From Marinoscillum pacificum (GTDB lineage Bacteria > Bacteroidota > Bacteroidia > Cytophagales > Cyclobacteriaceae), in contig NZ_JAMZMJ010000005.1 in assembly GCF_024714495.1 (NCBI RefSeq), positions 62,001 through 126,000 on the forward strand: 64,000 nucleotides of DNA, in the 5' to 3' direction. The translations under genes and the position numbers were made by a program. Of this stretch, positions 6,356 through 63,851 are shown in pieces (position 1 is the first letter of the stretch; each line of letters begins with the position of its first letter). The notes beneath the pieces were generated by a model. The model saw only the letters and a program-made list of their open reading frames with translations, did no database searches and was not told the DNA's origin.

Positions 6356-6811
6356 TTATTCTTGATCCGGCAACAACTCCCAGGTGTGATCAGATAATAG
6401 CTTAACACTACCAACATACTCACTCCATTTTTTAGATCTTCCCCATTCTTTGGGTTTAATCATGGACAGAAAGTCTGAACCATTTTCTCGTGTGTACAAA
6501 TGATACTCTTGACCAATAACTGGCGAAAAGCCCATTTCACTCTGATAAATCCTCTCAGAAATTTCAACTCGTTTCTTCAGTTGGTTAGCCTGATCTAGCA
6601 ACGTTTTCATTTGCCCAAATATTTGATCAAACTGTCTGGTTGTTTGATCCTGCATGGCGGTCATTGCCTGACCTCTGATCTTGCCCTTATCTTCCGGCTT
6701 GATCAATGCGCCACCAACGGTATGTGCATACTCGATCAACCCAGGCAAATCAGTAATCTTTTCCCTTTCTTTCTCGAGATCTATTTTAGAAACATCAATT
6801 TTGTTATTCAC
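6356..6811 (-). CDS. DUF2452 family protein
   Basis: This 151-aa soluble protein resembles the DUF2452 (C1orf50-like) family, from the pattern LPGLIEYAHTVGGALIKP near residues 23-40, a helical middle rich in Gln, and a C-terminal EWG...WEYVGSVKLLSDHTWE-like segment. Function is unknown. The start codon is GTG at 6811, with no ATG within the first 45 codons. The GTG lies inside the last codons of the 47-aa gene upstream (8-base overlap), which suggests translational coupling. There is no signal peptide or membrane segment. Confidence 0.8.
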   Translation of the reverse strand: MNNKIDVSKIDLEKEREKITDLPGLIEYAHTVGGALIKPEDKGKIRGQAMTAMQDQTTRQFDQIFGQMKTLLDQANQLKKRVEISERIYQSEMGFSPVIGQEYHLYTRENGSDFLSMIKPKEWGRSKKWSEYVGSVKLLSDHTWELLPDQE

Positions 6812-6947
6812 CTTCCTTTATTCTTTCTTCCAAACTTTTCTTGGCACCTGGCCAGGTGGTTCTTGTACTCATATCATAACCGATAATGATCATGATAATC
6901 AGAAAAATCGCTGCAATTGCAAAAAAAATCTTCTTTGACCTTTTCAT
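6804..6947 (-). CDS. 47-aa single-pass membrane peptide
   Basis: This small gene runs from ATG at 6947 to TAA at 6804-6806. The product begins MKRSKKIFFAIAAIFLIIM, a basic N-terminus followed by a strongly hydrophobic helix (residues about 7-24), then GYDMSTRTTWPGAKKSLEE and a charged tail. The STRTTWPGAKK segment resembles a short motif seen in small Bacteroidota membrane proteins; this is recollection, not a search. Overlap of its stop with the GTG of the DUF2452 gene argues that it is a real gene in a two-gene operon. Function unknown. Confidence 0.65.
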   Translation of the reverse strand: MKRSKKIFFAIAAIFLIIMIIIGYDMSTRTTWPGAKKSLEERIKEGE

Positions 6948-6993
6948 ATCCTAATATCAACTGCAAATTTGAGCAATAGTTTTAAAAAGAGAT

Positions 6994-7371
6994 ATGACGG
7001 TAGACGGTAAATTAATCGAGAAATCAGAAACACAAGAAGTAACCAACAGTTTCAAAAAGCGAGAATTTGTGGTAGAATACGCAGAAAACCCACAATATCC
7101 TGAATTTTTGAAGTTCGAATTAATCCAAACGAATTGCCAGCAACTTGATGCTTTTAACATTGGCGATGAAATGACCATCTCTTTCAACCTTAAAGGTAGA
7201 AAGTGGACAGATCGAAGCGGTGAAGTAAAATACTTTAACAGTCTGCAGGCCTGGAGATTGGAAAAGAAAGCAGGTAGTGCACCAGCAAGTGGTGCTCCCG
7301 ACACACCTCCCCCACCATCAGACGATTGGATGAAGGAGGACTTTTCTTCAGACGAAGATCTTCCGTTCTAA
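6994..7371 (+). CDS. DUF3127 OB-fold-like protein
   Basis: This 125-aa protein of the DUF3127 family is found almost only in Bacteroidota. It has a compact beta-rich domain (residues 1-95: SFKKREFVVEYAENPQYP, FELIQTNCQQLD, FNLKGRKW) and an acidic, proline-rich tail ending in SSDEDLPF. That tail strongly recalls the SSB C-terminal peptide (DDDIPF) used to recruit DNA-repair partners. A single-stranded DNA-binding role is therefore plausible but unproven. It is divergent from the 47-aa gene, 46 bases away, and its stop overlaps the convergent 87-aa gene by 4 bases. Confidence 0.85.
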   Translation: MTVDGKLIEKSETQEVTNSFKKREFVVEYAENPQYPEFLKFELIQTNCQQLDAFNIGDEMTISFNLKGRKWTDRSGEVKYFNSLQAWRLEKKAGSAPASGAPDTPPPPSDDWMKEDFSSDEDLPF

Positions 7372-7631
7372 GCGTTTCGCTTTTTTCTGAAGGTTATTGG
7401 AATGTAGTCGTCAGTCGGTAAACCAATATGAGCAAGATCCCATTCCTTGTCATAATTATTGATTAACTGACGGATACATTCCACACGATCTTCGGTTGGA
7501 TAAGGACATTCGTCCCAATGGAAAATTTCAACACGATAATTGTATTGTTTCTTAATTCCATTAACTCTTACCTCAACTTCTATGTCTTGTTCTTCGTTAA
7601 GTTGAGGGATTTCGATTCCTATTATTCCCAT
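7368..7631 (-). CDS. Conserved hypothetical protein, 87 aa
   Basis: An 87-aa, acidic, soluble protein without signal peptide. It starts MGIIGIEIPQLNEEQDIEV and has FHWDECPYPTEDRVECIRQLI near the middle and DDYIPITFRKK at the end. I do not recognise a named family. Coding character is good over the whole length. It converges with the DUF3127 gene, overlapping by 4 bases. Confidence 0.6.
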   Translation of the reverse strand: MGIIGIEIPQLNEEQDIEVEVRVNGIKKQYNYRVEIFHWDECPYPTEDRVECIRQLINNYDKEWDLAHIGLPTDDYIPITFRKKRNA

Positions 7632-7750
7632 AAGTCATTCGGTTTAGTATATATTAGGTATCAAAAAATATACCCATTTACGCAACCAACTTTAAATCAG
7701 CGAGTTAAATAATTCTCATTGATTTTAAATGACCGAATAAGAACACTTAT

Positions 7751-8275
7751 ATGTTCATAAATAGAATACAAACTCTAATTTTTTTATCGGCGACTATTAT
7801 GTCTATAGGTTCATCCTGTGATGGCAATAAAGAAAAACGTCCCTCACCACTGACGACGGATAGTATAGCTATAGGCCAAACACATATCCTGGTAGAGTAT
7901 AGTAGTCCAGCAGTTAAAAAAAGAAAGATCTGGGGTGAACTGGTACCTTATGGAGAAATCTGGAGAACTGGGGCCAACCGAGCATCATTCATTACGACTG
8001 ACAAAGACATCAAAATTGAAAACAACCTCCTTCCAGCAGGCAAGTATTCGATATTCACTATACCCACTGATTCAACCTGGTCCATTATTTTCAATGAAGA
8101 CTGGGATCAATGGGGAGCATTTAATTACATGGAGAATAAAGATGCCTTTAGGATCAAAGTCAAACCCGTTAAGTCTTCTTTTGATGAACGTATGAAATTT
8201 ACACTTTCAGAAGATGCCTTGAAGTTTGACTGGGAAGAACTTGAATTTAGCCTGAAGCTGCAAGCCAATTTATAG
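7751..8275 (+). CDS. DUF2911 lipoprotein
   Basis: This 174-aa protein has a lipoprotein signal (TIMSIGSSCDGN, Cys at about residue 23). The rest is a DUF2911 domain: VEYSSPAVKKRKIWGELVPYGEIWRTGANRAS near residues 50-80, then LPAGKYSIFTIP and WSIIFNEDWDQWGAF. The family is common in Bacteroidota and its biochemical role is unknown. It probably sits in the periplasm or outer membrane. It ends 6 bases into the end of the convergent DUF302 gene. Confidence 0.85.
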   Translation: MFINRIQTLIFLSATIMSIGSSCDGNKEKRPSPLTTDSIAIGQTHILVEYSSPAVKKRKIWGELVPYGEIWRTGANRASFITTDKDIKIENNLLPAGKYSIFTIPTDSTWSIIFNEDWDQWGAFNYMENKDAFRIKVKPVKSSFDERMKFTLSEDALKFDWEELEFSLKLQANL

Positions 8276-8722
8276 TTGCCTTAAGGCATCCATTGAAATC
8301 CGAGTAATGACATTGGTTAATTCGGTTATTGTATCCTCACAATCGGTAATCATAAACCGACGCTTCATAAATTTAGGATCCATAAATCCAATATAAACAT
8401 CACCGTACTCTTCCCAAACGATTATTTCTAGAGGTAAATCAAGAGCTGCACTGGGTTGACACTGCAAAAGTGTGGTTGAAAGAGTTGGCTCTTCAAAAAG
8501 TATGCTACGTGTCGAATCTAATTCCATTCCTCTTTCACGAGCTATTTCATCATGATTAACTGTTTCAAAATAGATCAGTTTCTCATCTGCCTGAATTACT
8601 TCTATTAATTTAGAAACTGTTTCCTGAACTCCTTTGTCACTTTTATACACTGTCAGAGTCTGTGCAAAAGCAATATTTGCATAGATTAGTAGACCAATTA
8701 TGATCAAAAGTGGTTTTTGCAT
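8270..8722 (-). CDS. DUF302 periplasmic protein
   Basis: This 150-aa protein has an N-terminal signal peptide (MQKPLLIIIGLLIYANIAFAQ, cleavage after FAQ). The domain resembles DUF302: VYKSDKGVQETVSKLIEVIQ, then an inserted helix and LDLPLEIIVWEEYGDVYIGFMDP. DUF302 folds as an alpha/beta two-layer sandwich, function unsettled; proposed roles include binding of small ligands or metals. Here it would act in the periplasm. It converges with the DUF2911 gene with a 6-base overlap and is divergent from the HAMP-PP2C gene across 201 bases. Confidence 0.8.
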   Translation of the reverse strand: MQKPLLIIIGLLIYANIAFAQTLTVYKSDKGVQETVSKLIEVIQADEKLIYFETVNHDEIARERGMELDSTRSILFEEPTLSTTLLQCQPSAALDLPLEIIVWEEYGDVYIGFMDPKFMKRRFMITDCEDTITELTNVITRISMDALRQL

Positions 8723-8923
8723 GTCTTGTATACGGTGAAATCAACTGCTAAAAAACTAAATTATGTGATGGCAAGAAAGTATTCATGCGAGAAATCCATG
8801 AATTCAACCAATTATTTGACAAAATCACCTTAAATCGGCACAAAAATTAAATACAATTGCATCAGTTTACTTAGCTTGTTTCAAAGTCTATTAATTTTGT
8901 TACACAAATCAACCTAAGACCGA

Positions 8924-10201
8924 ATGAACATTTACGCCAAACTCACCTTACTCTGTGTTGCACTGGTAATTATCACTTCAACAGTGGTTTACTTTCTGGT
9001 AAATATGGAGTTGGAAAATGCGTTTTCGACTGAGGCTATACAAGCCATGGCTAATGACCCAAGCACTGTTTCCGCTACTGTTCAGAAAAGCATTGACGGC
9101 ATTCAGACAAAGTTAATATGGACTATTCTCGCAGTGATCGGTGGATCCATCATATTGGCAGTGGCAGTTGCCAACATGTTTGTAAAACCAATCCTCAAAA
9201 TCACCAAAGCTGCTGAAGCTATCGCTGGTGGAAATCTGGAAGTAGAAATCCCTGTTAATTCTAATGATGAATTAGGTAAACTAGCAGACAATCTAAATAA
9301 AGCATCAAAAGGCCTTATTAAGCGACTAGCTGAGCAAAGAAAGTTCAATGAAACACTGGAAGCTCAAAAAGATGAGATTCAAGCGCAAAAGTTGAAAATC
9401 GAAGAGGTTAACAATCAGATTTCTGATAGTATTATTTATGCTCAAAGAATTCAGAAGTCCATTCTTCCCGAACTGAATGTAATGTCACGCCTCGTTAAAG
9501 ATGCATTTGTCATTTATAAACCTAAGGATGTTGTTAGTGGTGATTTCTATTGGTTTGAAAGAGTTCGTCAAGGCAGAAATGAGTATTTGATCATCGCTTG
9601 TGCAGACTGTACGGGTCATGGCGTACCTGGTGCTATCATGTCGATCATGGGAAGTAATCAACTGACCAACATCGTTTATTACCAAAACTATTTGGACCCT
9701 GTAAAAATCCTTGCTCGATTGGATAAGGTTATCAAATTCGAATTACAAAGAGATGAGAATGATGATAAACATAGCCGAGACGGAATGGAAATCGGAATTT
9801 GTGTTATCAATCTGGATGACTTATCGATGGAGTTTGCTGGTGCAGGCATTCCACTTTACCTGATCAAAAATGGCTCTACAGAATTGGAAACCTACAAGAG
9901 TCCTAAAATGATGGTTGGCGGTATTGAAGGTGACGAAAAAGAAGTTTCAGAGCAACTAGAGAAGCAAACTATACAACTACAAGAAGGAGATAAAATCTTC
10001 CTATCATCTGACGGCTATCAGGATCAGTTTGGTGGCGAGAATGATAAGAAGTTCATGTCTAAAAACTTCAAGAAACTAATCGAAGATGGTGCCAACAGCC
10101 CGATGAGTGACTTGAAAACCATACTAGACGATGAGTTTGAAGCATGGAGAGGTAATACTCCACAAACTGATGATGTGGTTGTACTAGGCGTTCAGATCTA
10201 G
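8924..10201 (+). CDS. HAMP-PP2C (SpoIIE-type) membrane serine phosphatase, SiaA-like
   Basis: This 425-aa protein has TM1 (about 6-26), a very short periplasmic loop (27-62), TM2 (63-87), a HAMP domain (88-140), a coiled coil (140-175) and a SpoIIE-type PP2C domain (180-425). All metal-binding acids are present: SGDFYW (Asp207), ADCTGHG (Asp228), SSDGYQD (Asp363) and TDDVVV (Asp416/417). SpoIIE/SiaA-type phosphatases dephosphorylate the anti-anti-sigma-like partner in partner-switching systems. The SiaB-like and SiaC-like genes 4 kb away make SiaC-like phosphoprotein the probable substrate. The short loop suggests it senses membrane state or a partner rather than a large ligand. A hairpin terminator follows. 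Confidence 0.9.
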   Translation: MNIYAKLTLLCVALVIITSTVVYFLVNMELENAFSTEAIQAMANDPSTVSATVQKSIDGIQTKLIWTILAVIGGSIILAVAVANMFVKPILKITKAAEAIAGGNLEVEIPVNSNDELGKLADNLNKASKGLIKRLAEQRKFNETLEAQKDEIQAQKLKIEEVNNQISDSIIYAQRIQKSILPELNVMSRLVKDAFVIYKPKDVVSGDFYWFERVRQGRNEYLIIACADCTGHGVPGAIMSIMGSNQLTNIVYYQNYLDPVKILARLDKVIKFELQRDENDDKHSRDGMEIGICVINLDDLSMEFAGAGIPLYLIKNGSTELETYKSPKMMVGGIEGDEKEVSEQLEKQTIQLQEGDKIFLSSDGYQDQFGGENDKKFMSKNFKKLIEDGANSPMSDLKTILDDEFEAWRGNTPQTDDVVVLGVQI

Positions 10202-51858: not shown

Positions 51859-51888
51859 TTGATATATTGTTACTTACAACTAAATTTA
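51859..51888 (+). promoter_or_regulatory. Candidate promoter of the sensor-kinase array
   Basis: TTG at 51859-51861, a 19-base spacer and TAAATTTA at 51881-51888 (one mismatch to TAnnTTTG). Predicted transcription would start near 51894, before the TTG at 51912 but after the TTG at 51867, which argues for the later start codon. Confidence 0.4.
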
Positions 51889-51911
51889 TCGTTCATCGAC
51901 CATCCACTAGT

Positions 51912-54710
51912 TTGCTGATAAGAATTGCGTTTATACTTCTATCCCTTATTTTGTTGAGCGGTACCATGGCTCAAGGAGTAGAGCAGACTATCAACTACAC
52001 GACAAGAGATGGACTACCCTCTAACACGGTTTATGGAATAGCACAGGATAACCTGGGTTATATTTGGCTAGGTACAGACAAAGGACTTAGCCGGTTTGAT
52101 GGAAAGGAGTTTATCAATTACACAGAAGAAGATGGACTTTTAGACTCTGAGATACTTAAGTTTTTCAAGGATTCAAAAGGCCGCATCTGGTATTTTACGT
52201 TAAATGGGAATATCGGTTATATCTACAATGCTTCACTTCATACAGTTGAAAATACGGGCATTTCTGAACGCATAGTGAGCATCACAGAACATAAAGGTGA
52301 AATCTACTTTACCAGCAGAACACATTGTTTCAAAATTGAGGAGTCTGGTAAAATCAAAATTTTCGATTGGGATTTTTATTGTCCTTCTTTTGAAAGCAAT
52401 GGCTCAAGATTGTTTCTATGGACAAAAAACACGATTTATGAAGTCGACACCACAAATGAACGCTTATCTATTCTAAAAACAGGTGAAGCACTAAAAAGCA
52501 TAAAAAGCTATTTATCGTATTATAGAGAATACCTAATTAGTTATTCTGGAACTCGGTCGCAAAGTAATTCGACGATTGTTAAATACAATGTCAAGTCAAA
52601 TGCAATCGAAAAAATTCAAATGCCCTATGAAATTAGAAACATCAAGGTTGTTAATGATAAACTCAACCTTTTCACTTTTGAAGGCATCTATGAGTTTGAT
52701 CCTGCCAACAACTCTCTTACACTTGACAAAACAAATATATGGTGTACGGACAAAATTTTAGACTCAAATAATAACCAATGGGTCTCAACCTACTATAATG
52801 GTATTTTCTGTAAAAATGAGATTATAAATATTAGTCAAACGATTCAATCCAAAAAACTCAGAAGGGTCTACAGTACGCATTCAGATGTCTATTTATTAGA
52901 TGACTTACAAAAAACTTATATACTGAATCCAAATAATGATTTAGTGAGAATAGATGCCATTTTTTCACCTGAAAGATTCATTAGGAGCAAATTCAATCAC
53001 TTAATAATAGGAAGTCATTCTGAAATATCTATAGACAACCAAAACTACAGGATACCTTCTCTTGGCTTAGACACTATAGGCAATCATTTAATTGTTGGAG
53101 CCATAGATAGCTTAGTGATATTCAATATCCACGCTAAAAAACCAACTATACTATCAACTGTAATCAATAAGCAGTTTGGAAAGATCCGGGAATTACTCAT
53201 TCAAGATTCACTTCATTATATCATCAGAAACGATGGTGGTGCACATACTTTTAATGTAGAAACGGAAGAGTTTTCTCAAATCAAGATTAGGACAAGAATA
53301 AATAATATACATAAAGATCAAAATGGCATTATCTGGCTAGCGACGAATGGATCTGGCGTTTATTACCTTGATGAAAACAATAAACTTGAAAACATCAATC
53401 AAACAAATGGTCTTAGTAATAATTTCCCTGACAAAATCTCTTCTATAGGTGATGACATTTACTTAATGTATGCCGATGAAATTGACATAATTAGAAATGC
53501 TTCAAATGACAAACTAGCAGAGTTGAAAATTGACCATTTATCAGGAATACCTGGTAATCTTATCGATTTCTCAAGTACAGACTCCACTATATTGGTTGTA
53601 ACAGATAAGGGACTATATTCCATCCAACCTAAATTAAGTATAACCAAAAACAATGAGCCAATTCCATTAAGAATTGAGCATCTAACTGCTGACGAAATAC
53701 AGATAAAATTAAGTAAAGATATAGAAGTAAGTCTACCTGCAGGAACAGAGCGGATCAGGTTTAAATATTCTGCACCTTTTTTCCAATTTGGCCAAGAAGC
53801 CATTTTCAGGTATCGAATTAGTGAACCTGACAGCAAGAATGATAGCTGGAATCAAACGAATGAAACCTTCCTTACTTTTGACAAACTAAAATCAGGTAGA
53901 TATACATTTGAAGTGCAATGTCGTTCTAATATTTCTAGCTGGTCGGACACCCAAGCAGTATCATTTCAATTATTACCATACTGGTACGAACAAGTGTGGT
54001 TAAAATGGATAACCGCATTTTTCTCTTCGATTGTAATCATTCTTACTATTCAACAAATTAGAGCAACCATATTATCAAAAAAGAAGCTCAAAACGGAAAA
54101 GGTTTTTGCAGAATTATCTGCTAAAAAAGCTCAGTTTAAATCCCATTTTATATTCAATGCATTAAACTCCGTTAGAAATCACCTGTTAACAAATGAGTTA
54201 AAAGAAACGGATGATTTTCTAGTAGCCTACTCCAAATTGATGCGTAAAATGCTCGATGTATCAAATCAAGTATTAATTCCTCTTAGAGAAGAACTAGAAC
54301 TCATTAACCTATACATGGGCCTTGAAAAGATGAGATTAAGAGATCAGTTTGAATATGATATCGAAATAGCCAACAATGTACAACTCGACAAGTTGAAATG
54401 CCCTGCAATGATTATGCAAGTCTTCGTAGAAAATGCTATTTGGCATGGAATCATGCCCTTAAGCGATACCGGGTTTCTAAGTATCTTCATTACTCAAAAA
54501 AAACACCAATATATCATAAGAATCACTGATGATGGAGTCGGGTTTAAAAGCTCGGAAATTAACAACAATCGCAAATCGTGGGGTACGCAAATCGTTAATG
54601 ACAAAATCAATTTGATAAAAGAAACCTACGATACAGATATTCAAATCGAAATCGAAAGTAACAAAGGTGTAGGAACATCAGTTGCCATTTCTCTACCCAT
54701 TAACTTCTGA
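51912..54710 (+). CDS. Propeller-Y_Y_Y-LytS-type sensor kinase, array copy 1
   Basis: This 932-aa protein is taken from TTG 51912 (signal MLIRIAFILLSLILLSGTMAQ); a TTG at 51867 would add 15 residues that fall inside the promoter. The extracytoplasmic reg_prop propeller starts GLPSNTVYGIAQDNLGYIWLGTDKGLSRFDG. A Y_Y_Y-like domain (about 610-700) leads to one TM (about 700-722). The His_kinase/HATPase end has His745 in QFKSHFIFN, N-box FVENAIWHG and G1 TDDGVGF. The usual NPHF of LytS-type kinases is KSHF here. This copy is the most divergent of the four in the kinase. No response regulator is encoded next to it. Confidence 0.88.
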   Translation: MLIRIAFILLSLILLSGTMAQGVEQTINYTTRDGLPSNTVYGIAQDNLGYIWLGTDKGLSRFDGKEFINYTEEDGLLDSEILKFFKDSKGRIWYFTLNGNIGYIYNASLHTVENTGISERIVSITEHKGEIYFTSRTHCFKIEESGKIKIFDWDFYCPSFESNGSRLFLWTKNTIYEVDTTNERLSILKTGEALKSIKSYLSYYREYLISYSGTRSQSNSTIVKYNVKSNAIEKIQMPYEIRNIKVVNDKLNLFTFEGIYEFDPANNSLTLDKTNIWCTDKILDSNNNQWVSTYYNGIFCKNEIINISQTIQSKKLRRVYSTHSDVYLLDDLQKTYILNPNNDLVRIDAIFSPERFIRSKFNHLIIGSHSEISIDNQNYRIPSLGLDTIGNHLIVGAIDSLVIFNIHAKKPTILSTVINKQFGKIRELLIQDSLHYIIRNDGGAHTFNVETEEFSQIKIRTRINNIHKDQNGIIWLATNGSGVYYLDENNKLENINQTNGLSNNFPDKISSIGDDIYLMYADEIDIIRNASNDKLAELKIDHLSGIPGNLIDFSSTDSTILVVTDKGLYSIQPKLSITKNNEPIPLRIEHLTADEIQIKLSKDIEVSLPAGTERIRFKYSAPFFQFGQEAIFRYRISEPDSKNDSWNQTNETFLTFDKLKSGRYTFEVQCRSNISSWSDTQAVSFQLLPYWYEQVWLKWITAFFSSIVIILTIQQIRATILSKKKLKTEKVFAELSAKKAQFKSHFIFNALNSVRNHLLTNELKETDDFLVAYSKLMRKMLDVSNQVLIPLREELELINLYMGLEKMRLRDQFEYDIEIANNVQLDKLKCPAMIMQVFVENAIWHGIMPLSDTGFLSIFITQKKHQYIIRITDDGVGFKSSEINNNRKSWGTQIVNDKINLIKETYDTDIQIEIESNKGVGTSVAISLPINF

Positions 54711-54746
54711 CTAATTTTAAGTCATCAACCACAATTACCTGCATAA

Positions 54747-57575
54747 GTGAGAGATCAACTACTGTTAATTGTATTTCTTATACTCATTAGCAATTCCCTT
54801 GTTGCACAAAACCTCGGTGAATCAATTAATTACACCGTTTCAGATGGTCTTCCGTCTAATACTATTTATGCTATAGAACAGGATTCCTTAGGTTACATAT
54901 GGCTGGGAACCAATAAAGGACTAAGTAGGTTTGATGGCACTGAATTCGTTAATTACAGTCCAAAAGATGGTCTGGCTGATACTGAAATCCTTAAATTCTT
55001 CAAAGACTCAAAAAATAGAATCTGGTATTACACGCTCAATGGCAAAATCGGATACATAAAAAATGGTAGACTATACACAAAAGAAACAGGAAGCAATATA
55101 GATCCTATAAATCATCAAATTACCAGCATAATTGAATACAATAATCAGATCTATTTTTCCTCTAGAAGAAGAATCTTTAGTTATAATGATTCTCTAGATG
55201 AGTTCATCTCTGATAATACGATTTATCTGCTACCGAAATATTTTAAATCACACTCCGGATTATTACTAAAAACAGACACAAGTATCTTAAAGGTTTCCAA
55301 GACGGAATCGGGACATCTCTCTCTTTGGGATTCACATAACCTTAGAAACATTGGCTTCATGATTTCCAACAATCATAAACTTTATGGTATTTCGTCTTTA
55401 GACGACACAGGAAAGGAAAGCAGATACCTTCATGATTCCTCCTATTTAATTGAATATGATATCAGCAAAAAGCGATTACAAAAGACAATTTTAAATATTG
55501 GGTTAACTCATAATATGAAAAACCACACGGACAGCTCTTTCTTCATCTTTGCTGCCTCAGGAGTTTATCAATATCAACTAGCGAACCATGAACTAACTCA
55601 AATAAGTCCAGTCTACAAACCAACTGACATACTGGAAACCAAAAATGGTGATCTCTTAATTACCACTTATAACAATGGGTTGTTACTTTTCCATGAAAGC
55701 CCTAACACCAATTGCCTTATCCAAACTGACAGCATCAAATCAAGTTATTTGATAAATAATAAGATTTACTATGAAACTCTTTTTGCAAAAATAGGATCGT
55801 ATGATTCCACAGGGTCCATTAATAACATTGACCTAAGTGACCTTCGGTCCATTGAAGATACTAAAAGTGGCGAACCATTAATTATTGGCTATCATCAAAT
55901 AATATATGGTAAGACTGAAATAACTACATACTTAAGTGCTGTAACCAATGATCATGAAAATTTATGGTATGCAAAGCTTGATAATATTTATCAATTGAAG
56001 ATTACTCCTGACTCCTTAATGCCGGTTAAGACTATTAAAAAACCTGTGCAAGGTAAGATTAGACATATGACTAACATTGATTCATGCCACTTCTTGCTTT
56101 TCAATGATTTAAATACCTACCATTTTGACTTATGTTCGTCCAATATTGATCTACTACCAATTAACTCTAGAATTAATGAAATGGTGAAAGCTAGAGATGG
56201 AACTATTTTGATGGCGACGAATGGAGATGGAATAATAGCATTCTCCGAAAAACATAAGATTTCAACGATCAATACGAATGACGGATTAACAGATAATTTT
56301 ATTGACAAAATCGTTGTAGGAAATAATAATATTTGGGCATTAAATCGCAAAGGAGTTGACATTATTCAATTTCCTGTAGACTCTGGAGAGGTCAACATTC
56401 AACACCTTTGGGACCTCCCTGGTACTGTCAGAAGTATTTCGCCCACTACTTCTGGAATTTTAGCAACCACATCAACAGGTATTTATCACGTCAATGAAAA
56501 CTATAGTCTCCCATATTCGCAAAGGCCAGTGGTTTTTATCGATTGGTATTCGATTAATGGCTCCAAGAGGAACTATGAATCTCAAAACATCCAAATTAGC
56601 CCCAAGATCAATCAAATTCAATTTCGGTTTTCGTCCCCTCTTACCAATATAGGAGAAAAAGCAAGCTACCGTTATCGAGTGATCAATCAAAATAACCTAA
56701 CTGAATGGATTGATATTTCTGACAACACCCTAACCTTTGCCAATTTACAGCCTGGTCATGTAACATTGGAAATTCAAGCGAAATCAAATGAATTGGGGTG
56801 GTCAGAATCTACTCTGGTCAATTACGAAAAACATCCATATTGGTATGAACAATATTGGCTAAAGTGGCTAATTGCTTTTTTAACTTCTCTCCTACTAATT
56901 ACCGTAATTGGCAGAATAAGGAGTTCTATCCAATATAGAAAACGACTTAAATCTGAAAAACTATTTGCTGAACTATCCGCTCGCAAGGCTCAGTTCAAGT
57001 CACACTTTGTATTTAACTCCATCAATTCAGTTAGGAATTATCTACTCAATAATGACCAAAAAACTTCCGATGACTATTTGGTAGCCTACTCCAAATTGAT
57101 GCGTAAAATGCTGGATGTGTCCAATAAGGTATTAATCCCTCTCAATGAAGAGCTAGAATTAATTGAGTATTACATGTCTTTAGAACAAATGAGACTAAGA
57201 CATCAATTTGAATATCAAATAGAAATAGCTAAGGATATCCGTACTGCTGACTTAAAATGCCCAGCCATGATTACACAGGTATTTGTAGAAAATGCAATCT
57301 GGCATGGTATTATGCCTCTAAATGACACAGGATTCATCAATATTTTCGTTGCTCTCCAACAACAAGATCATTACGTTATTCGGATCACTGATGATGGTGT
57401 CGGGTTTGACCAAACCGATATCAAACAGAAAGATCAGACATCCTGGGGTACGAGTATTGTTAAAGACAAAACCAAACTCATTAAAGAGACCTACAATGTC
57501 GATTTAAAAATTGAAATAGAAAGTAAAAAAGGAGTAGGTACTGAGGTCTCCATTTTATTGCCAATTAACTTCTAG
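54747..57575 (+). CDS. Propeller-Y_Y_Y-LytS-type sensor kinase, array copy 2
   Basis: A 942-aa paralogue. A stop codon (TAA) immediately precedes GTG 54747, so the start is fixed at GTG or later; it yields signal MRDQLLLIVFLILISNSLVAQ. Propeller, Y_Y_Y (about 615-695), TM (about 705-725) and kinase with His753 in QFKSHFVFN are as in copy 1. The middle (about 110-700) differs strongly from the other copies, while the kinase from about residue 725 matches copy 3 exactly over more than 120 residues. It begins 36 bases after copy 1. Confidence 0.88.
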   Translation: MRDQLLLIVFLILISNSLVAQNLGESINYTVSDGLPSNTIYAIEQDSLGYIWLGTNKGLSRFDGTEFVNYSPKDGLADTEILKFFKDSKNRIWYYTLNGKIGYIKNGRLYTKETGSNIDPINHQITSIIEYNNQIYFSSRRRIFSYNDSLDEFISDNTIYLLPKYFKSHSGLLLKTDTSILKVSKTESGHLSLWDSHNLRNIGFMISNNHKLYGISSLDDTGKESRYLHDSSYLIEYDISKKRLQKTILNIGLTHNMKNHTDSSFFIFAASGVYQYQLANHELTQISPVYKPTDILETKNGDLLITTYNNGLLLFHESPNTNCLIQTDSIKSSYLINNKIYYETLFAKIGSYDSTGSINNIDLSDLRSIEDTKSGEPLIIGYHQIIYGKTEITTYLSAVTNDHENLWYAKLDNIYQLKITPDSLMPVKTIKKPVQGKIRHMTNIDSCHFLLFNDLNTYHFDLCSSNIDLLPINSRINEMVKARDGTILMATNGDGIIAFSEKHKISTINTNDGLTDNFIDKIVVGNNNIWALNRKGVDIIQFPVDSGEVNIQHLWDLPGTVRSISPTTSGILATTSTGIYHVNENYSLPYSQRPVVFIDWYSINGSKRNYESQNIQISPKINQIQFRFSSPLTNIGEKASYRYRVINQNNLTEWIDISDNTLTFANLQPGHVTLEIQAKSNELGWSESTLVNYEKHPYWYEQYWLKWLIAFLTSLLLITVIGRIRSSIQYRKRLKSEKLFAELSARKAQFKSHFVFNSINSVRNYLLNNDQKTSDDYLVAYSKLMRKMLDVSNKVLIPLNEELELIEYYMSLEQMRLRHQFEYQIEIAKDIRTADLKCPAMITQVFVENAIWHGIMPLNDTGFINIFVALQQQDHYVIRITDDGVGFDQTDIKQKDQTSWGTSIVKDKTKLIKETYNVDLKIEIESKKGVGTEVSILLPINF
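56911..57575 (+). repeat. Near-identical kinase-encoding block, unit A (copy 2)
   Basis: The ~665 bases that encode the cytoplasmic linker and kinase of copy 2 recur nearly unchanged at 59757-60418 and 62604-63270. Synonymous positions also match over long stretches, for example around the KSHFVFN and LMRKMLDVSN segments, suggesting recent duplication or gene conversion. Confidence 0.75.
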
Positions 57576-57613
57576 TTAACTTCACCATCATTAAGAACAA
57601 CCATCGCATTCTT

Positions 57614-60418
57614 TTGAGAAGATATTATCTGTTTGTATTTCTCATTTTAGTAATAAACGATTTTTTGAGTGCTCAGCATTATGAGACTACTGTAAACTAT
57701 ACAGTTGAAGACGGACTTCCATCTAATACCATTTATGCAATAGAACAGGACTCTCTAGGGTACATCTGGCTAGGAACTAACAAAGGGTTAAGCAGATTTG
57801 ATGGTTCCGAATTCATTAATTATTCTGAAGAAGATGGATTGCAAGACACTGAAGTCCTGAAGTTTTTTAAAGACTCTAAACAAAGAATCTGGTACTACAC
57901 AATCAACGGAAAGTTAGGGTATATCCAACATGCACAATTGCATAAAACAACCTGGCACCAGGACACTAAGCCCAACTTAAGGCAAATAATTTCTATAAAA
58001 GAGTATGAGAATCAAATCATTGTTACTACCCAGGCCCATATATACATCTATTTGGATAGTCTAAATCAATTCCAATCAGATAATAAAAAATATCGACTCG
58101 CTCGGGCATTTGAATCAGAAAATGGTTTATATCTTCTGACTGAAGATAAAATCTCCATTCTCAAATCTTCCGATATTTTCAATCCCCTATTTTGGGATAG
58201 TCTCATTTGGCAAAACAATTATTTTGTAGTGAATATCAACGACCATATTTATGGCTTCAGTAATATTACTGACTTTAAAAAAAACAGCTATTTCGATTAT
58301 TCCATTCCAGAGAAAAAACAATCATTTTACTCTACAAGTTTATCAGGAATTTATAATGCCAAGATAGAGTCCGATACTACTATTTTTATTTTCAACGTCT
58401 CAGGAATTTATAGGTTCAACATTCTGAACAAAAAAGTTGAGTCGGTTTTATCCGCCTATATGCCAACTGACTTCATTAATACTACTAATGGTGACAGATG
58501 GATGACCACTTATCATAATGGACTTATTTTCTCACATAACAACTCATCCATCAAAGAAGTACTAAAAAGTGACAGTATTAAGTCTGCGTTCCGCATTAAT
58601 TCAAAAATTTTCTTTCAAACAATGTTTTCTGACGTTTATGAAAAAGACTCTTCTCAATGCAGACTTATTTTCAACTTTCCAAATCTTAGAGAAATTATAG
58701 CATTTAATGGTGACACTCCATTATTTATAGGGTATCATGCCATCAAATATCAAAACTCTTATTCTAAAGCTTATCTTCCTTCCTATGCTTATGACAGTAC
58801 GTCAATTTGGATTTCAGAGGGAGAACTCATACATCTCAATAAAGTTAGTCCAGACTCACTCATACGGATAAATTCAAGAGTTAGACCTAACCATGGAAAA
58901 ATAAGACATTTTCAACCTCTCGACTCATGTTCCTTTCTTATCTACAATGATGTTCTAACCTTTACCTATAATTTTTGCACTCAACAAACCACCGCAGTTC
59001 CTATTCAATCAAGGTTGAATAAAATGATCAAAGACGAGAATAACCGAATATGGATTGGAACTAATGGAAAAGGAATCTACGTATTTCACAATACAGATTC
59101 AATTCAACATATAGGACTAGATGAAGGCCTTGATGACAATTATGTTGAACAAATAGTTATTGCAAGTAATCACGTGTGGGCCATGCACCGCAAAGGAATT
59201 GATTTGATCACAATAAATCCTAATTACGAAATTCAAAGCATTGTTTACATACGGGATTTACCAGGAGTACCAAGATCAATTTCCAAATCAAAAAATGGAA
59301 TACTAGCCACAACATCTAGTGGAATCTATGAAATCAGTGATAAATATAACTCACAACCTCACAAAGCACCTGAGGTATTTATTGACTGGATACTATTAGA
59401 CAATGATCAAAAGGCAATATTAAATGACGACCAATTTCAAATCCTTGAAACAACAGAGCAATTACAGTTGAAACTTTCTTCCCCAATCAAAAATTATGGA
59501 CAACAAGTATTCTATCGATACAAATTAATCCAAAATGAAAAAGGTGGAAACTGGATCAATATTTCCACAAAAACACTAACATTTGGAAGGCTCCAGCCCG
59601 GGGATTACACTATTATCATTCAAGCAAAGTTTAATAATTCAAACTGGGGAAATTCGAGGGTGATACAATTTTACAAACATCCTAAGTGGCACGAAATCAC
59701 TTGGCTTAAATGGCTAATTGCATTTCTAACCTCTCTTCTCCTAATCGCCATCATTGGCAGAATAAGGAGTTCTATCCACTATAGAAAACGACTTAAATCA
59801 GAAAAACTATTTGCGGAACTATCCGCTCGAAAAGCTCAATTCAAATCTCATTTTGTATTTAACTCCATCAATTCTGTTAGGAATTACCTACTCAATAATG
59901 ACCAAAAAACTTCTGATGACTATTTGGTTGCCTACTCCAAATTGATGCGTAAAATGCTGGATGTGTCCAACAAGGTATTAATTCCACTCAATGAAGAGCT
60001 AGAATTAATTGAGTATTACATGTCTTTAGAACAAATGAGACTTAGACATCAATTTGAATATCAAATTGAAATAGCTAAGGATATCCGTACTGCGGACTTA
60101 AAATGCCCAGCCATGATTACCCAGGTATTTGTGGAAAATGCTATCTGGCACGGTATCATGCCTCTAAATGAAACAGGATTCATCAATATTTTCGTTGCTC
60201 TCCAACACGATCATTACGTTATTCGGATCACTGATGATGGCGTCGGGTTTGACCAGACTGATATCAAACAGAAAGATCAGACATCCTGGGGTACGAGTAT
60301 TGTAAAGGACAAAATCAAATTAATTAAAGAGACCTATAATGTCGACTTAAAAATTGAGATTGAAAGTAAAAAAGAAGTAGGTACTGAGGTCTCCATTTTA
60401 TTGCCAATTAACTTCTAG
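57614..60418 (+). CDS. Propeller-Y_Y_Y-LytS-type sensor kinase, array copy 3
   Basis: A 934-aa paralogue with a TTG start at 57614 (signal MRRYYLFVFLILVINDFLSAQ); no ATG or GTG exists earlier in frame after the last stop. Its first ~85 residues closely match copy 4 (HYETTVNYTVEDGLPSNTIY), the sensor middle diverges, and the kinase carries His746 in QFKSHFVFN. Relative to copies 2 and 4, one to two residues are missing at VALQH-DHYV, in the loop between strands of the ATPase. It begins 38 bases after copy 2. Confidence 0.88.
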   Translation: MRRYYLFVFLILVINDFLSAQHYETTVNYTVEDGLPSNTIYAIEQDSLGYIWLGTNKGLSRFDGSEFINYSEEDGLQDTEVLKFFKDSKQRIWYYTINGKLGYIQHAQLHKTTWHQDTKPNLRQIISIKEYENQIIVTTQAHIYIYLDSLNQFQSDNKKYRLARAFESENGLYLLTEDKISILKSSDIFNPLFWDSLIWQNNYFVVNINDHIYGFSNITDFKKNSYFDYSIPEKKQSFYSTSLSGIYNAKIESDTTIFIFNVSGIYRFNILNKKVESVLSAYMPTDFINTTNGDRWMTTYHNGLIFSHNNSSIKEVLKSDSIKSAFRINSKIFFQTMFSDVYEKDSSQCRLIFNFPNLREIIAFNGDTPLFIGYHAIKYQNSYSKAYLPSYAYDSTSIWISEGELIHLNKVSPDSLIRINSRVRPNHGKIRHFQPLDSCSFLIYNDVLTFTYNFCTQQTTAVPIQSRLNKMIKDENNRIWIGTNGKGIYVFHNTDSIQHIGLDEGLDDNYVEQIVIASNHVWAMHRKGIDLITINPNYEIQSIVYIRDLPGVPRSISKSKNGILATTSSGIYEISDKYNSQPHKAPEVFIDWILLDNDQKAILNDDQFQILETTEQLQLKLSSPIKNYGQQVFYRYKLIQNEKGGNWINISTKTLTFGRLQPGDYTIIIQAKFNNSNWGNSRVIQFYKHPKWHEITWLKWLIAFLTSLLLIAIIGRIRSSIHYRKRLKSEKLFAELSARKAQFKSHFVFNSINSVRNYLLNNDQKTSDDYLVAYSKLMRKMLDVSNKVLIPLNEELELIEYYMSLEQMRLRHQFEYQIEIAKDIRTADLKCPAMITQVFVENAIWHGIMPLNETGFINIFVALQHDHYVIRITDDGVGFDQTDIKQKDQTSWGTSIVKDKIKLIKETYNVDLKIEIESKKEVGTEVSILLPINF
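59757..60418 (+). repeat. Near-identical kinase-encoding block, unit B (copy 3)
   Basis: This is the second member of the repeated kinase block. It differs from unit A by scattered silent changes, a short in-frame deletion in the VALQH segment and a Gly-to-Glu change near the end (SKKEVGTE). Confidence 0.75.
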
Positions 60419-60456
60419 TTAACTTCACCACCTTCAACAACAACCATCGATTTCTT

Positions 60457-63273
60457 TTGAGAAAATATAACCTTTTCGTATTTCTCATTTCAGTAATACA
60501 TCCTTTTTTGAATGCTCAGCACTATGAGACTACTGTAAACTATACAGTTGAAGACGGACTTCCATCCAATACAATATATGCCATAGAACAGGATTCTCTA
60601 GGATACATTTGGTTGGGTACTGATAAAGGTCTTAGCAGATTTGACGGAACAGAATTCATCAACTATACAGAGTCAGATGGCCTTACGGATAGCGAAATTC
60701 TAAAATTCTATAAGGATCCAGAAAATAGGATCTGGTACTATACCTTAAATGGAAAAATCGGATTTATAAAAAATGGTAAAATCCATAATCAGTTTAGAGG
60801 AAGCGCGATAGATATAGGAAGTCGCGTTCAAAGCATCTTTTTCTTTCAAGGTGACTTATTCACGCTTTCAAATTCAATAAATACAACGGCCAACATTGAT
60901 GTTTCAAACACTCACCCTACAGTTAGAGCATTCATTGGTGACGAGCAAAACCTATATCTATTAAGCTTTTATTCAATCTATTATTTGGACAGTACCTCTT
61001 CTACTTTCAAAGAGATACCAATTTCCAACAAAACATCCGGCAGTTCTCTTAAAACAGAATATGAATATGCGACCTACGTAAACAAATTTATCCTTTCATA
61101 TCGAACCAGACGATTTCTCACGTCAAAGACCCAATCACTTTTATATACTTTCAACACAACTAACAATCGTCTGGATTCAATTTCATTTAACAATGGCAAC
61201 ATATTAAATATTAAAAAGGCGACTGACTCTACGGCTTATTATTTTACCACACAAGGAGTTTTTTCATTTAACCCAAAGTCCGCGGCATTTATCAATATTA
61301 ATTCATATGACTATGCTACAGATTATCTAATTGATGATTATGGAAACAGATGGACAACAACTTATCAGAATGGACTTTTTCTTGATTTAGCTAATAAAGA
61401 GATCAAACAGATCTATAAATCGACTGGTTTTAAATCAAGTTTTGAAATTGACTCAATAAAATATTTGGTCTCCAAAGATGACTTAATTTATACCTATTCG
61501 GACTCTGTGCTTTCACATCCCATACTAAGGCAGAATCAAATTGAACTAATCCATCCAACCTCATTTAAAGATCCGTTGTACATTGGTCGTTATGGCTATT
61601 ACTATAAAAAAGATCACCTCAATGCTTACCTATCAGCATACACCATTCATTCAGATACCTTAAGTTATTATAGAGCTAACAAAATTGTACAATGTAAAAT
61701 TACTCGAAATGGCTTAGATGAAATAAGAACCTTGCCTACCCTCAAAAAAGGTATAATCAAAAAGTTCATATCAATGAGCTCCAACGATTTCTTAGCGTAT
61801 GATGATCGGGAAATTCTACAATTCAACTATGCAAATAGCAGCGTTAATTCAACAGTTGTGGATTCAAGGATAAATCACCTTTCGATAGATGAGAAACAAA
61901 GAATTTGGATAGGCACCAATGGAAACGGAGTTTTTTATGTTAAAGACGAAAAAGATACTGTTCATTTCAACTCAGCGCTAGGCTTGGGAAATGATTTCAT
62001 TAAGTCGATCAGTCACCAAACTGATATAGCATGGGTTTTACATAATAATGGAATTGACCTTATCGAGGTAAATAAACCAATAGAACAAGCTATTACTCAT
62101 GTAAAACCTATTCCCGGAAATATATACCATATATCGAGTTCAAAAAACGGAATACTGGCAACAACATCTAAGGGTATTTTTGAGGTTACCAATGATTACC
62201 CGTTAAATATTAAAAAAACACCTCAGGTGAACCTAGATTGGATCAAGACAGACAAAACTAAATTCATCACTTCTAAAGAAAACTTAGATTTTATCCCATC
62301 TACTCAACAAATTCAAATAAAATTTTCCTCTCCCTACTGGCAGCATGGTCAATCTATCGTTTACCGATACAAACTTGCTGAAACTACCGAGAGAAGTCAA
62401 TGGATTCAAACCAGTAAAAACCTAATCACTAGTGACAATCTAAAACATGGAAAATATACCTTAGAAATTCAAGCACGGGCGAATAACACCAACTGGTCAG
62501 AGTCTTTTCTCTTACATTTCGAGATGAGACCTTATTGGTATGAGCAGGCTTGGCTTAAGTGGTTATTCGCTTTTTTATCTTCTCTCCTACTAATTACCAT
62601 CTTTGGTCGTATAAGGAGTTCTATCCACTATAGAAAACGACTTAAATCTGAAAAACTATTTGCTGATCTATCCGCCCGAAAGGCTCAATTCAAATCTCAT
62701 TTTGTATTTAACTCCATCAATTCTGTTAGGAATTACCTACTCAATAATGACCAAAAAACTTCTGATGACTATTTGGTAGCCTACTCCAAGTTGATGCGTA
62801 AAATGCTGGACGTGTCCAACAAGGTATTAATTCCACTCAATGAAGAGCTAGAATTAATTGAGTATTACATGTCATTAGAACAAATGAGACTTAGACATCA
62901 ATTTGAATATCAAATTGAAATATCTAAGGATATCCGTACTGCTGACTTAAAATGCCCAGCCATGATTACCCAGGTATTTGTGGAGAATGCTATCTGGCAT
63001 GGCATCATGCCCCTTAATGACACAGGATTTATTAATATTTTCATTGCTCTACAACAACAAGATCATTACGTTATTCGGATTACTGATGATGGTGTCGGGT
63101 TTGACAAAACTGATATCAAACAGAAAGATCAGACATCCTGGGGCACGAGTATTGTAAAGGACAAAATCAAACTTATTAAAGAGACCTACGATGTTGATTT
63201 AAAAATTGAGATTGATAGTAATAAAGGAGTAGGTACTGAGGTCTCCATTACTTTACCTATTTCATTCTCTTAA
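60457..63273 (+). CDS. Propeller-Y_Y_Y-LytS-type sensor kinase, array copy 4
   Basis: A 938-aa paralogue with a TTG start at 60457 (signal MRKYNLFVFLISVIHPFLNAQ). It has the same architecture; His748 lies in QFKSHFVFN. The kinase differs from copies 2 and 3 at few sites (ADLSARK, EISKDI, FNIFIALQ), whereas residues about 110-690 are largely unlike them. The 38-base spacer before it is nearly the same as the one before copy 3, so gene plus spacer was the duplicated unit. It is followed by 80 bases and the flavodoxin-like gene. Confidence 0.88.
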   Translation: MRKYNLFVFLISVIHPFLNAQHYETTVNYTVEDGLPSNTIYAIEQDSLGYIWLGTDKGLSRFDGTEFINYTESDGLTDSEILKFYKDPENRIWYYTLNGKIGFIKNGKIHNQFRGSAIDIGSRVQSIFFFQGDLFTLSNSINTTANIDVSNTHPTVRAFIGDEQNLYLLSFYSIYYLDSTSSTFKEIPISNKTSGSSLKTEYEYATYVNKFILSYRTRRFLTSKTQSLLYTFNTTNNRLDSISFNNGNILNIKKATDSTAYYFTTQGVFSFNPKSAAFININSYDYATDYLIDDYGNRWTTTYQNGLFLDLANKEIKQIYKSTGFKSSFEIDSIKYLVSKDDLIYTYSDSVLSHPILRQNQIELIHPTSFKDPLYIGRYGYYYKKDHLNAYLSAYTIHSDTLSYYRANKIVQCKITRNGLDEIRTLPTLKKGIIKKFISMSSNDFLAYDDREILQFNYANSSVNSTVVDSRINHLSIDEKQRIWIGTNGNGVFYVKDEKDTVHFNSALGLGNDFIKSISHQTDIAWVLHNNGIDLIEVNKPIEQAITHVKPIPGNIYHISSSKNGILATTSKGIFEVTNDYPLNIKKTPQVNLDWIKTDKTKFITSKENLDFIPSTQQIQIKFSSPYWQHGQSIVYRYKLAETTERSQWIQTSKNLITSDNLKHGKYTLEIQARANNTNWSESFLLHFEMRPYWYEQAWLKWLFAFLSSLLLITIFGRIRSSIHYRKRLKSEKLFADLSARKAQFKSHFVFNSINSVRNYLLNNDQKTSDDYLVAYSKLMRKMLDVSNKVLIPLNEELELIEYYMSLEQMRLRHQFEYQIEISKDIRTADLKCPAMITQVFVENAIWHGIMPLNDTGFINIFIALQQQDHYVIRITDDGVGFDKTDIKQKDQTSWGTSIVKDKIKLIKETYDVDLKIEIDSNKGVGTEVSITLPISFS
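62604..63270 (+). repeat. Near-identical kinase-encoding block, unit C (copy 4)
   Basis: The third member of the repeated kinase block. It keeps the double Gln (QQQDHYV) found in unit A and the ILPI-like end changed to TLPISFS. Confidence 0.75.
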
Positions 63274-63353: not shown

Positions 63354-63851
63354 ATGAAAATTGCACTAATCATCAGCGATCACACCTCCGAAAGAAACTC
63401 TCTGAAAGTTGGGCTAGAACTTGAAGAAAGACTCAATGCATTAGGAGTTGACAACACATTATTTGATCTTCAAGACGACCACAATATCCAAATTGGAAGT
63501 TATGACTCAATAATTTTAGTAACCGAAAATCAGGGACCACTAATCAGTTTTGAGCTATACAGTATGATATTAACTAATCGTTCAGAATGGGCGGGGAAAC
63601 TTCTTCTACCAATAATTACTACAGAAGAGGCCATTCTTGGTGAATCAGCTTATCAACAAATCAAAACCATAGTAAAATCACTAGGTGCTGAAGTAATCAC
63701 TGAGCACACCATATTCACCAAACTTAGAAACAAATTTGACTCTGACATGAACCTTAAGGATCAGGAGCTTAACTTCGTGATTGATCGGCTGATACTTCTT
63801 ATTCTTAGTGAAAGTAAACCTACACGCTCTAGAATGCGAATCATCGCCTGA
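63354..63851 (+). CDS. Flavodoxin-fold, NADPH-FMN-reductase-like protein
   Basis: This 165-aa protein appears to be a degenerate member of the NADPH-dependent FMN reductase/flavodoxin-like group. Its N-terminus KIALIISDHTSERNSLKVGLELEERL matches the phosphate-binding strand-loop, and YDSIILVTENQGPLISFELYSMI and EWAGKLLLPIITTEEAILG match later elements. The usual GSxRxxS and PEYN motifs are replaced by SDHTSER and TENQG, so FMN binding is uncertain. It ends 2 bases before the ECF sigma gene and may be co-transcribed with it. Confidence 0.6.
   Translation: MKIALIISDHTSERNSLKVGLELEERLNALGVDNTLFDLQDDHNIQIGSYDSIILVTENQGPLISFELYSMILTNRSEWAGKLLLPIITTEEAILGESAYQQIKTIVKSLGAEVITEHTIFTKLRNKFDSDMNLKDQELNFVIDRLILLILSESKPTRSRMRIIA

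Follow-up and report, generated by a model that had tools for sequence, protein, structure and literature searches.

A 64,000-nucleotide stretch of the Marinoscillum pacificum genome (the window: contig C28:62001-126000 of a 6.4-Mb genome, labelled G000 here) carries an array of four successive plus-strand open frames, K1-K4, of 934-947 residues each. We found that these frames are membrane receptor histidine kinases of family PF06580, whose periplasmic propeller sensors resemble the ones in hybrid two-component systems (HTCS), and that the kinases of K2-K4 have been homogenised by DNA exchange, with the kinase of K1 left out. The array is probably a many-to-one set, in which four divergent sensors, each with its own cue, act on one LytTR regulator encoded 13.1 kb downstream, the kinases of K2-K4 having been homogenised after the split from a related genome (G003). 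The architecture, the breakpoints, the relative age of the exchange, the synteny and the mirrored trees were established computationally; phosphotransfer from K1-K4 to the orphan regulator is predicted from sequence.

Four tandem receptor kinases with propeller sensors

All four frames (Table 1) matched Reg_prop, Y_Y_Y and His_kinase (PF06580) above the Pfam cut-offs, the last with 59.1-62.4 bits against a cut-off of 25.2, and HATPase_c was above its cut-off in K2, K3 and K4. We take this PF06580 kinase type to be that of LytS/YpdA. The residues H753, N849, D882, G884, G886, G931 and T932 (K2 numbering) are conserved in all four kinases. Neither Response_reg nor any DNA-binding family was matched in K1-K4 at E 0.001 or better in Pfam. 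The first listed start codons are all TTG or GTG (51867, 51912, 54747, 57614, 60457).

An AlphaFold2 model of K2 (mean pLDDT 83.7, pTM 0.59, 37 sequences in the alignment) showed a long run of strands followed by a single continuous helix, residues 703-767, that leads into the kinase; the hydropathy peak at residues 704-722 marks the transmembrane (TM) segment. The best structural matches of the model were the periplasmic parts of BT4663 (4a2l), BT3049 (3v9f) and BT4673 (3ott), the match to 4a2l having a Foldseek E of 6.9e-35 and a TMt of 0.68 at 15% identity. A sequence search with K2 returned the same entries. From the structural match, the K2 sensor would consist of two propellers, as in HTCS. 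An assembly artefact was considered and is unlikely, since the copies differ throughout, with sensors of about 30% identity, and sit well within a larger contig (399 kb), with no N in the window.

Recent kinases within old genes

Pairwise alignment of four pairs (K2-K3, K2-K4, K3-K4 and K1-K2) gave protein identities of 67-75% over the N-terminal 94-95 residues and 28-37% over the sensors. The kinases were 94-98% identical among K2-K4, and 71% identical between K1 and K2.

We observed that the proportion of silent differences (pS) in the kinases (alignment columns 758-984) was 0.25 for K2-K3, 0.31 for K2-K4 and 0.22 for K3-K4, and 0.78-0.81 for the three pairs containing K1. In the sensors (columns 119-650) it was 0.72-0.79 over all six pairs and 0.77-0.79 among K2-K4. 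As pS is low in the kinases and high in the sensors of K2-K4, only the kinases of these three genes are recent mutual copies, set within genes with old sensors. Counts of codons for the same amino acid gave a similar picture: those that differed numbered 34 of 210 (K2-K3), 41 of 205 (K2-K4) and 29 of 203 (K3-K4) in the kinase, and 111 of 200, 87 of 163 and 93 of 158, respectively, in the sensor plus Y_Y_Y. Comparing silent differences in the kinase with those elsewhere gave a Fisher p of 2e-14 to 9e-20 for these three pairs, and of 0.19-0.58 for the three that include K1. Over columns 37-118, the constant part at the N-terminus, pS was 0.79-0.93 in all six pairs with a proportion of nonsilent differences (pN) of 0.10-0.18, and this saturation together with low pN indicates that the N-terminus is conserved by selection and not by exchange.

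Maximum-likelihood change points were placed at column 762 (757-765) for K2-K3, 751 (746-755) for K2-K4 and 765 (764-768) for K3-K4, with log-likelihood gains of 33.6-44.4; pairs with K1 gained only 1.4-4.4. These points fall inside the TM segment or at its end (column 765 is K2 residue 724). Since the K2-K4 interval overlaps neither of the other two, two or more exchange events are likely. The likeness of K3 and K4 continues through the stop codon, the spacer and the signal peptide, and falls to the usual N-terminal level about 110-140 bases into each gene. The exchanged block is therefore kinase, spacer and signal peptide, that is, everything except most of the mature portion that faces the periplasm.

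A sequence-only reading of this DNA had described a modular mosaic of four tandem kinases with a shared N-terminus, a divergent sensor and, in copies 2-4, a nearly identical kinase, and had named a sharp drop in identity at the TM boundary as what would support it. The identities and the silent-site change points in the TM codons bear this out, as do the spacers (36, 38 and 38 bases, where 36-38 had been given), of which those before copies 3 and 4 do match, at 32 of 38 positions. Its view of two constant ends stands in part: the kinases of K2-K4 reflect recent exchange, but the N-terminus, which selection holds at saturated sites, is not a shared recent module. Likewise K2-K4 belong to the homogenised set and K1, with a kinase about 70% identical to the others, lies outside it. 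The array had been started at 51912, where an in-frame TTG is indeed found, although the first TTG lies earlier, at 51867.

An identical mosaic with identical breakpoints would be predicted if K2-K4 were recent whole-gene duplicates that had been given divergent foreign sensor cassettes, an explanation compatible with a shared regulator. The low G+C content (GC) of the array (0.34-0.36, vs 0.41 in the 12 kb upstream) speaks for such replacement. However, sensor and kinase have similar GC, and the K2 sensor is nearer to those of K1, K3 and K4 (28-37%) than to those of G003a, G002 and G129a in related genomes (22-24%). Informative sensor columns (37-745) also favour K2+K3 overall (22 columns, vs 10 and 9 for the other groupings), in agreement with the kinase tree described below. 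With the K2 sensor closest to the array sensors and the sensor columns agreeing with the kinase tree, a local origin of the sensors is simpler, and we consider replacement unlikely. Shuffling of sensor blocks between copies was left as a weak candidate; the informative columns are too few, with just 2 in columns 401-520, both for a grouping other than K2+K3.

A displaced LytTR regulator as the candidate partner

Genome-wide, we found 29 matches to PF06580 and 41 to LytTR. A LytTR match lies within 2.7 kb of all 25 non-array PF06580 kinases and of none of the four array kinases, whose matches are 13.5-22.0 kb from the sole LytTR match on C28, K4 being the nearest. The sequence-only reading had stated that the array has no response regulator next to it. 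This is true locally, but the regulator is probably displaced by 13.1 kb, to outside the window, rather than absent. The suggestion that an amplified receptor family reports to a single response pathway is plausible, a candidate regulator having been found by synteny, trees and a mirror test. Among the 19 LytTR matches without a nearby PF06580 kinase, 8 adjoin another kinase-like frame in the 2-kb stretches read and 11 do not; two of these 11 (L195, L196) gave no frame above the chosen threshold. No PF06580 kinase lies beside the orphan regulator, whose opposite-strand neighbour is a HisKA hybrid kinase, and no kinase remnant was found near it in L009:14051-16000, where the best tblastn match had an E of 0.12 and covered 24 residues.

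G003 has its flanking genes in matching order, and there the orthologue of the orphan (73% identical, E 6e-114) belongs to a cluster with two tandem kinases of the array subfamily, sharing 4 bases with the nearer one. The array site of G003 holds only a 183-codon kinase remnant, which starts at the H-box. Both sites are empty in G004, with the flanks in order: at the array site an amidohydrolase is followed by a gene resembling flavin mononucleotide (FMN) reductases, and at the regulator site an M61 peptidase is followed by DctM 72 bases on. G002 has a single kinase adjoining its regulator, at a different genomic place. In a scan of 390 genomes of the family, our own included (chosen thresholds 1e-48 for the kinase and 1e-54 for the regulator, with few candidates scored per genome), K2 was matched at 1e-48 or better in 15 genomes and at 1e-100 or better in four (G000, G002, G003, G129), and the orphan at 1e-54 or better in three (G000, G002, G003). 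G001, G004 and G005 gave no match to either at these thresholds. Copy number, which the earlier reading had proposed to compare in related genomes, differs between species of the genus. A separate scan of relatives, in stretches of up to about 23 kb, kept the best 80 of 323 relatives and showed two such kinases in a row, by profile, in one of these 80 loci (L056, which is G003).

Trees were built from 68 kinase and 67 regulator rows, hand-chosen from 180 hits each. In the kinase tree the array kinases group with the remnant and the tandem pair of G003 and with the kinase of G002 in a single clade (100/99), and the orphan forms one clade with the G003 and G002 regulators in the regulator tree (100/95). 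The sister group matches in both trees, and comprises G129, G180, G053, G090 and our genome's own system at C11:230 kb. A distance-mirror test used 130 of the 149 kinase-regulator pairs found, after removal of duplicate loci and of pairs poorly covered by the profile. It ranked 35 own regulators, with 6 of the 11 unpaired LytTR matches passing the filter. With all references, the orphan was second of the 35 for each of K1-K4, and first among the 6 unpaired regulators.

Several observations weigh against a displaced shared regulator. The array has no neighbouring response regulator; the closest LytTR match is 13.5 kb away from the match of the K4 kinase. Few genomes, all from a single genus, underlie the joint occurrence of array and regulator, and one of them, G003, is a metagenome-assembled genome with 5% listed contamination. 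HATPase_c in K1 reaches 20.8 bits, under the Pfam cut-off of 26.4, and the change from proline to serine before the H-box histidine in all four array kinases could signal altered activity. When the G003 and G002 pairs were omitted from the mirror test, the orphan kept second place for K1 and K3 but fell to third for K2 and K4. In a control, the true partner came first in 4 of 20 cases and first or second in 7 of 20, a modest power; as the test is limited in this way, the case for the regulator rests on synteny and the trees. In addition, the regulator of the C11:230 kb system (G000:C11:230800) ranked first overall, level with the orphan for K1.

The array kinases could signal to another regulator, most likely that of this nearest paralogous system (G000:C11:230189-231513), or cross-talk with it; the C11 kinase also sits in the sister clade of the array kinases. 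However, the C11 regulator has its own adjacent kinase, and the mirrored place inside the clade (G002, G003, own) is occupied by the orphan. Array, G003 and G002 kinases also carry an arginine a few residues past the H-box histidine, vs glutamine in the sister kinases. We regard signalling through another regulator, such as that of the C11 system, as decidedly improbable, and retain the orphan as the candidate partner of the array.

Relative age and other tandem kinases

Between G000 and G003, the pS of orthologues was 0.73 for the amidohydrolase, 0.83 for the FMN-reductase-like gene, 0.90 for the regulator, 0.85 for a propeller-chemoreceptor-like protein and 0.44 for uxaC. As the kinase pS among K2-K4 is below all five flanking values, the exchange probably arose in our genome's own lineage, and is probably younger than the split from G003.

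The kinases and sensors are 71% and 35% identical, respectively, in the G003 tandem pair, and 63% and 30% in that of G129; two tandem pairs of G007 have kinases 63 and 79% identical and sensors 30% identical. Faster-changing sensors look like the rule in this kinase family. The kinase pS of these four tandem pairs is 0.77-0.85, with the sensors saturated too, so that, of the arrays compared, K2-K4 alone show recent homogenisation. The G007 pairs (G007:C154; L034:6694-12781 and L035:518-6659) belong to a different genus of the family, and no LytTR regulator was seen in the stretches read. One of the G007 kinase copies is broken up, its two frames lying at 6694-8991 and 8992-9687.

Greater identity in kinase than in sensor, as in these pairs, is also what ordinary duplication with purifying selection would give, the kinases being constrained and the sensors drifting freely, and the N-terminal columns 37-118 fit this process. 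Selection at the protein level cannot, however, cut silent divergence to the level of the K2-K4 kinases when that of their sensors stays high. Purifying selection alone is ruled out for these kinases by their silent sites, and holds for the N-terminus and for K1, whose kinase is silent-saturated against the other copies. As an account of the whole array it is very unlikely, and DNA exchange is the explanation that we prefer for K2-K4.

The residue before the H-box histidine

Proline precedes the H-box histidine in 129 of 134 aligned kinases, serine in the four array copies and tyrosine in one. The G003 remnant also has Ser-His, and the regulator-side kinase of G003 that was aligned has proline. 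The ratio of nonsynonymous to synonymous substitution (dN/dS) in the K2-K4 kinases is low (0.05-0.13) and the catalytic residues are kept, for which reason we take the serine as a probable mark of the lineage, not a functional loss. Decay of the array, with kinases inactive or the set being lost as at the remnant site of G003, could accommodate the serine, but with four open frames of 934-947 codons, this dN/dS and intact catalytic residues it is scarcely credible.

Proposed explanation

We propose that each propeller sensor would read a different cue in the periplasm, which, as for BT4663, may be a polymer fragment, and that K1-K4 would each phosphorylate the single candidate LytTR regulator. 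Once the lineage had separated from G003, gene conversion or unequal crossing over would have homogenised the kinases of K2-K4, carrying along the spacer and signal peptide of K3/K4, and the sensors, too divergent for recombination, would have stayed different. As sensor divergence would block recombination, the mosaic may be self-maintaining. Homogenisation would also keep K2-K4 matched to the shared regulator, and we infer that the shared output was selected and is not a by-product of recombination. That the four sensors differ in their ligands is presumed, as is the nature of these ligands.

The dimerisation domains of K2-K4 are near-identical, so that mixed dimers are possible. In a combinatorial receptor of this kind, K2-K4 would form heterodimers as well as homodimers, one regulator would integrate pairs of cues, and sensors could be gained, lost or rearranged by unequal exchange while the output stayed wired as before. 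We consider this extension quite unlikely.

Coordinates and neighbouring genes

Table 1. Features of the kinase array and its candidate regulator (window positions unless a contig is named)
Feature	Position	Strand	Remarks
K1	51867-54710	+	first start TTG; alternative in-frame TTG at 51912; signal peptide, propeller sensor, Y_Y_Y, TM, PF06580 kinase
Spacer K1-K2	54711-54746	+	36 bases; resembles the other two spacers less than those resemble each other
K2	54747-57575	+	start GTG; architecture as K1; H-box His is residue 753
K2 TM codons holding the silent-site breakpoints	56859-56925	+	alignment columns 746-768
Homogenised block 1	56907-57735	+	from the K2 kinase through stop and spacer to the signal peptide and first mature codons of K3; approximate at both edges
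Spacer K2-K3	57576-57613	+	38 bases
K3	57614-60418	+	start TTG; architecture as K1
Homogenised block 2	59753-60580	+	from the K3 kinase through stop and spacer to the signal peptide and first mature codons of K4; approximate at both edges
Spacer K3-K4	60419-60456	+	38 bases; 32/38 identical to spacer K2-K3
K4	60457-63273	+	start TTG; architecture as K1
Homogenised block 3	62602-63273	+	K4 kinase to array end; left edge approximate
Candidate partner regulator	C28:138384-139115 (= L009:14385-15116)	minus	receiver-LytTR protein; 13.1 kb past K4 end, outside window

Downstream of the array, the FMN-reductase-like gene (below the Pfam cut-off) and, two bases on, a sigma factor of the extracytoplasmic function (ECF) type lie at 63354-63851 and L009:1855-2433. 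The pair is conserved in G003 and G004. A tie of the array to this pair was rejected, since in G004 the pair follows the amidohydrolase without an array.

G003 keeps the gene order of the window genome over some 30 kb, with orthologues mostly 62-98% identical. Its record PBTY01000012.1 (L056/L086) is titled Rickettsiales bacterium, yet this genome is assigned to the same genus as that of the window, and the label looks wrong. The GC of the G003 kinase pair is 0.36, likewise under that of its flank (0.43). The pair adjoins a cluster for glucuronate isomerase and a tripartite ATP-independent periplasmic (TRAP) transporter. Uronate sensing was kept as no more than a weak hint; G004 has the cluster without the kinases, and in G000 it lies about 21 kb from the regulator. 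The uronate/TRAP cluster was located at L203:2370-8168 and L032:8571-15583. Between G000 and G003 its uxaC is 97% identical with the pS of 0.44 given above, against 0.73-0.90 in the four other flanking genes, and the aldolase and sugar kinase inside the cluster are just 45% and 42% identical. To judge from these comparisons, such contrasts may be a sign of recent exchange or replacement.

Comparison with known systems

The pattern of constant signalling part and variable sensor has already been described for chemoreceptors; no histidine kinase case, and no homogenised histidine kinase array, was found in the literature searched, which held few subscription journals. PctA, PctB and PctC of Pseudomonas aeruginosa are more than 96% identical in the signalling domain and less than 56% in the sensory domain, with pseudogenes and repeated duplication, according to the available portion of PMC6974571. 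Like the array, these are duplicated receptors with a constant signalling domain and a divergent sensory domain. They are chemoreceptors, however, and their constancy is ascribed there to selection (the terms 'recombination' and 'gene conversion' do not occur in the text), whereas in the kinases of the array the silent sites indicate DNA exchange. Similarly, the accessible part of PMC9769880 describes Tlp2, Tlp3 and Tlp4 of Campylobacter jejuni as having identical signalling domains, sensory regions about 30% identical, presence that varies between strains, and pseudogenes. The array shares the constant signalling domain and the sensors of about 30% identity, but these proteins are dCache chemoreceptors, for which the question of a response-regulator partner does not arise.

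The Bacteroides HTCS (BT4663, BT3049, BT4673) resemble the array in Reg_prop propellers, Y_Y_Y, TM segment and kinase. Their sensors are predicted to be a pair of 7-bladed propellers followed by Y_Y_Y (PMC3243724, in the sections available), and BT4663 senses heparin and heparan sulphate according to the title of PDB 4a2l. In HTCS, however, the kinase, receiver and DNA-binding parts are in one chain, whereas the array proteins have no receiver or DNA-binding match and a kinase of PF06580. Tethering is argued to insulate HTCS (PMC11253607, from the part of the text at hand); the array, if its regulator is shared, would follow the opposite design, that of sharing, and would offer a contrast with insulation by fusion within the same phylum.

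With PF06580-LytTR systems the array has in common the kinase family and the family of the candidate partner, but the usual order of this genome, one kinase with an adjacent regulator, is broken, with four kinases and a regulator 13.1 kb off. Relatives in the family are the gene clusters of G003 and G129 (two kinases, then a response regulator) and of G002 (one kinase, then a response regulator), which belong to the array subfamily or its sister clade and have equal sensor architecture. The tandem kinases of G003 and G129 adjoin one LytTR regulator; unlike in the array, that regulator is adjacent and the kinases are not homogenised. For annotation, this comparison suggests that seemingly orphan kinase arrays can be paired by comparing the order of genes with that of species in which the two partners still adjoin, and here it names a specific regulator (C28:138384-139115) as the candidate partner. 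Together, the array would be a compact natural case of wider sensing without new output, with a kinase kept uniform by recombination, a diverging sensor and one regulator.

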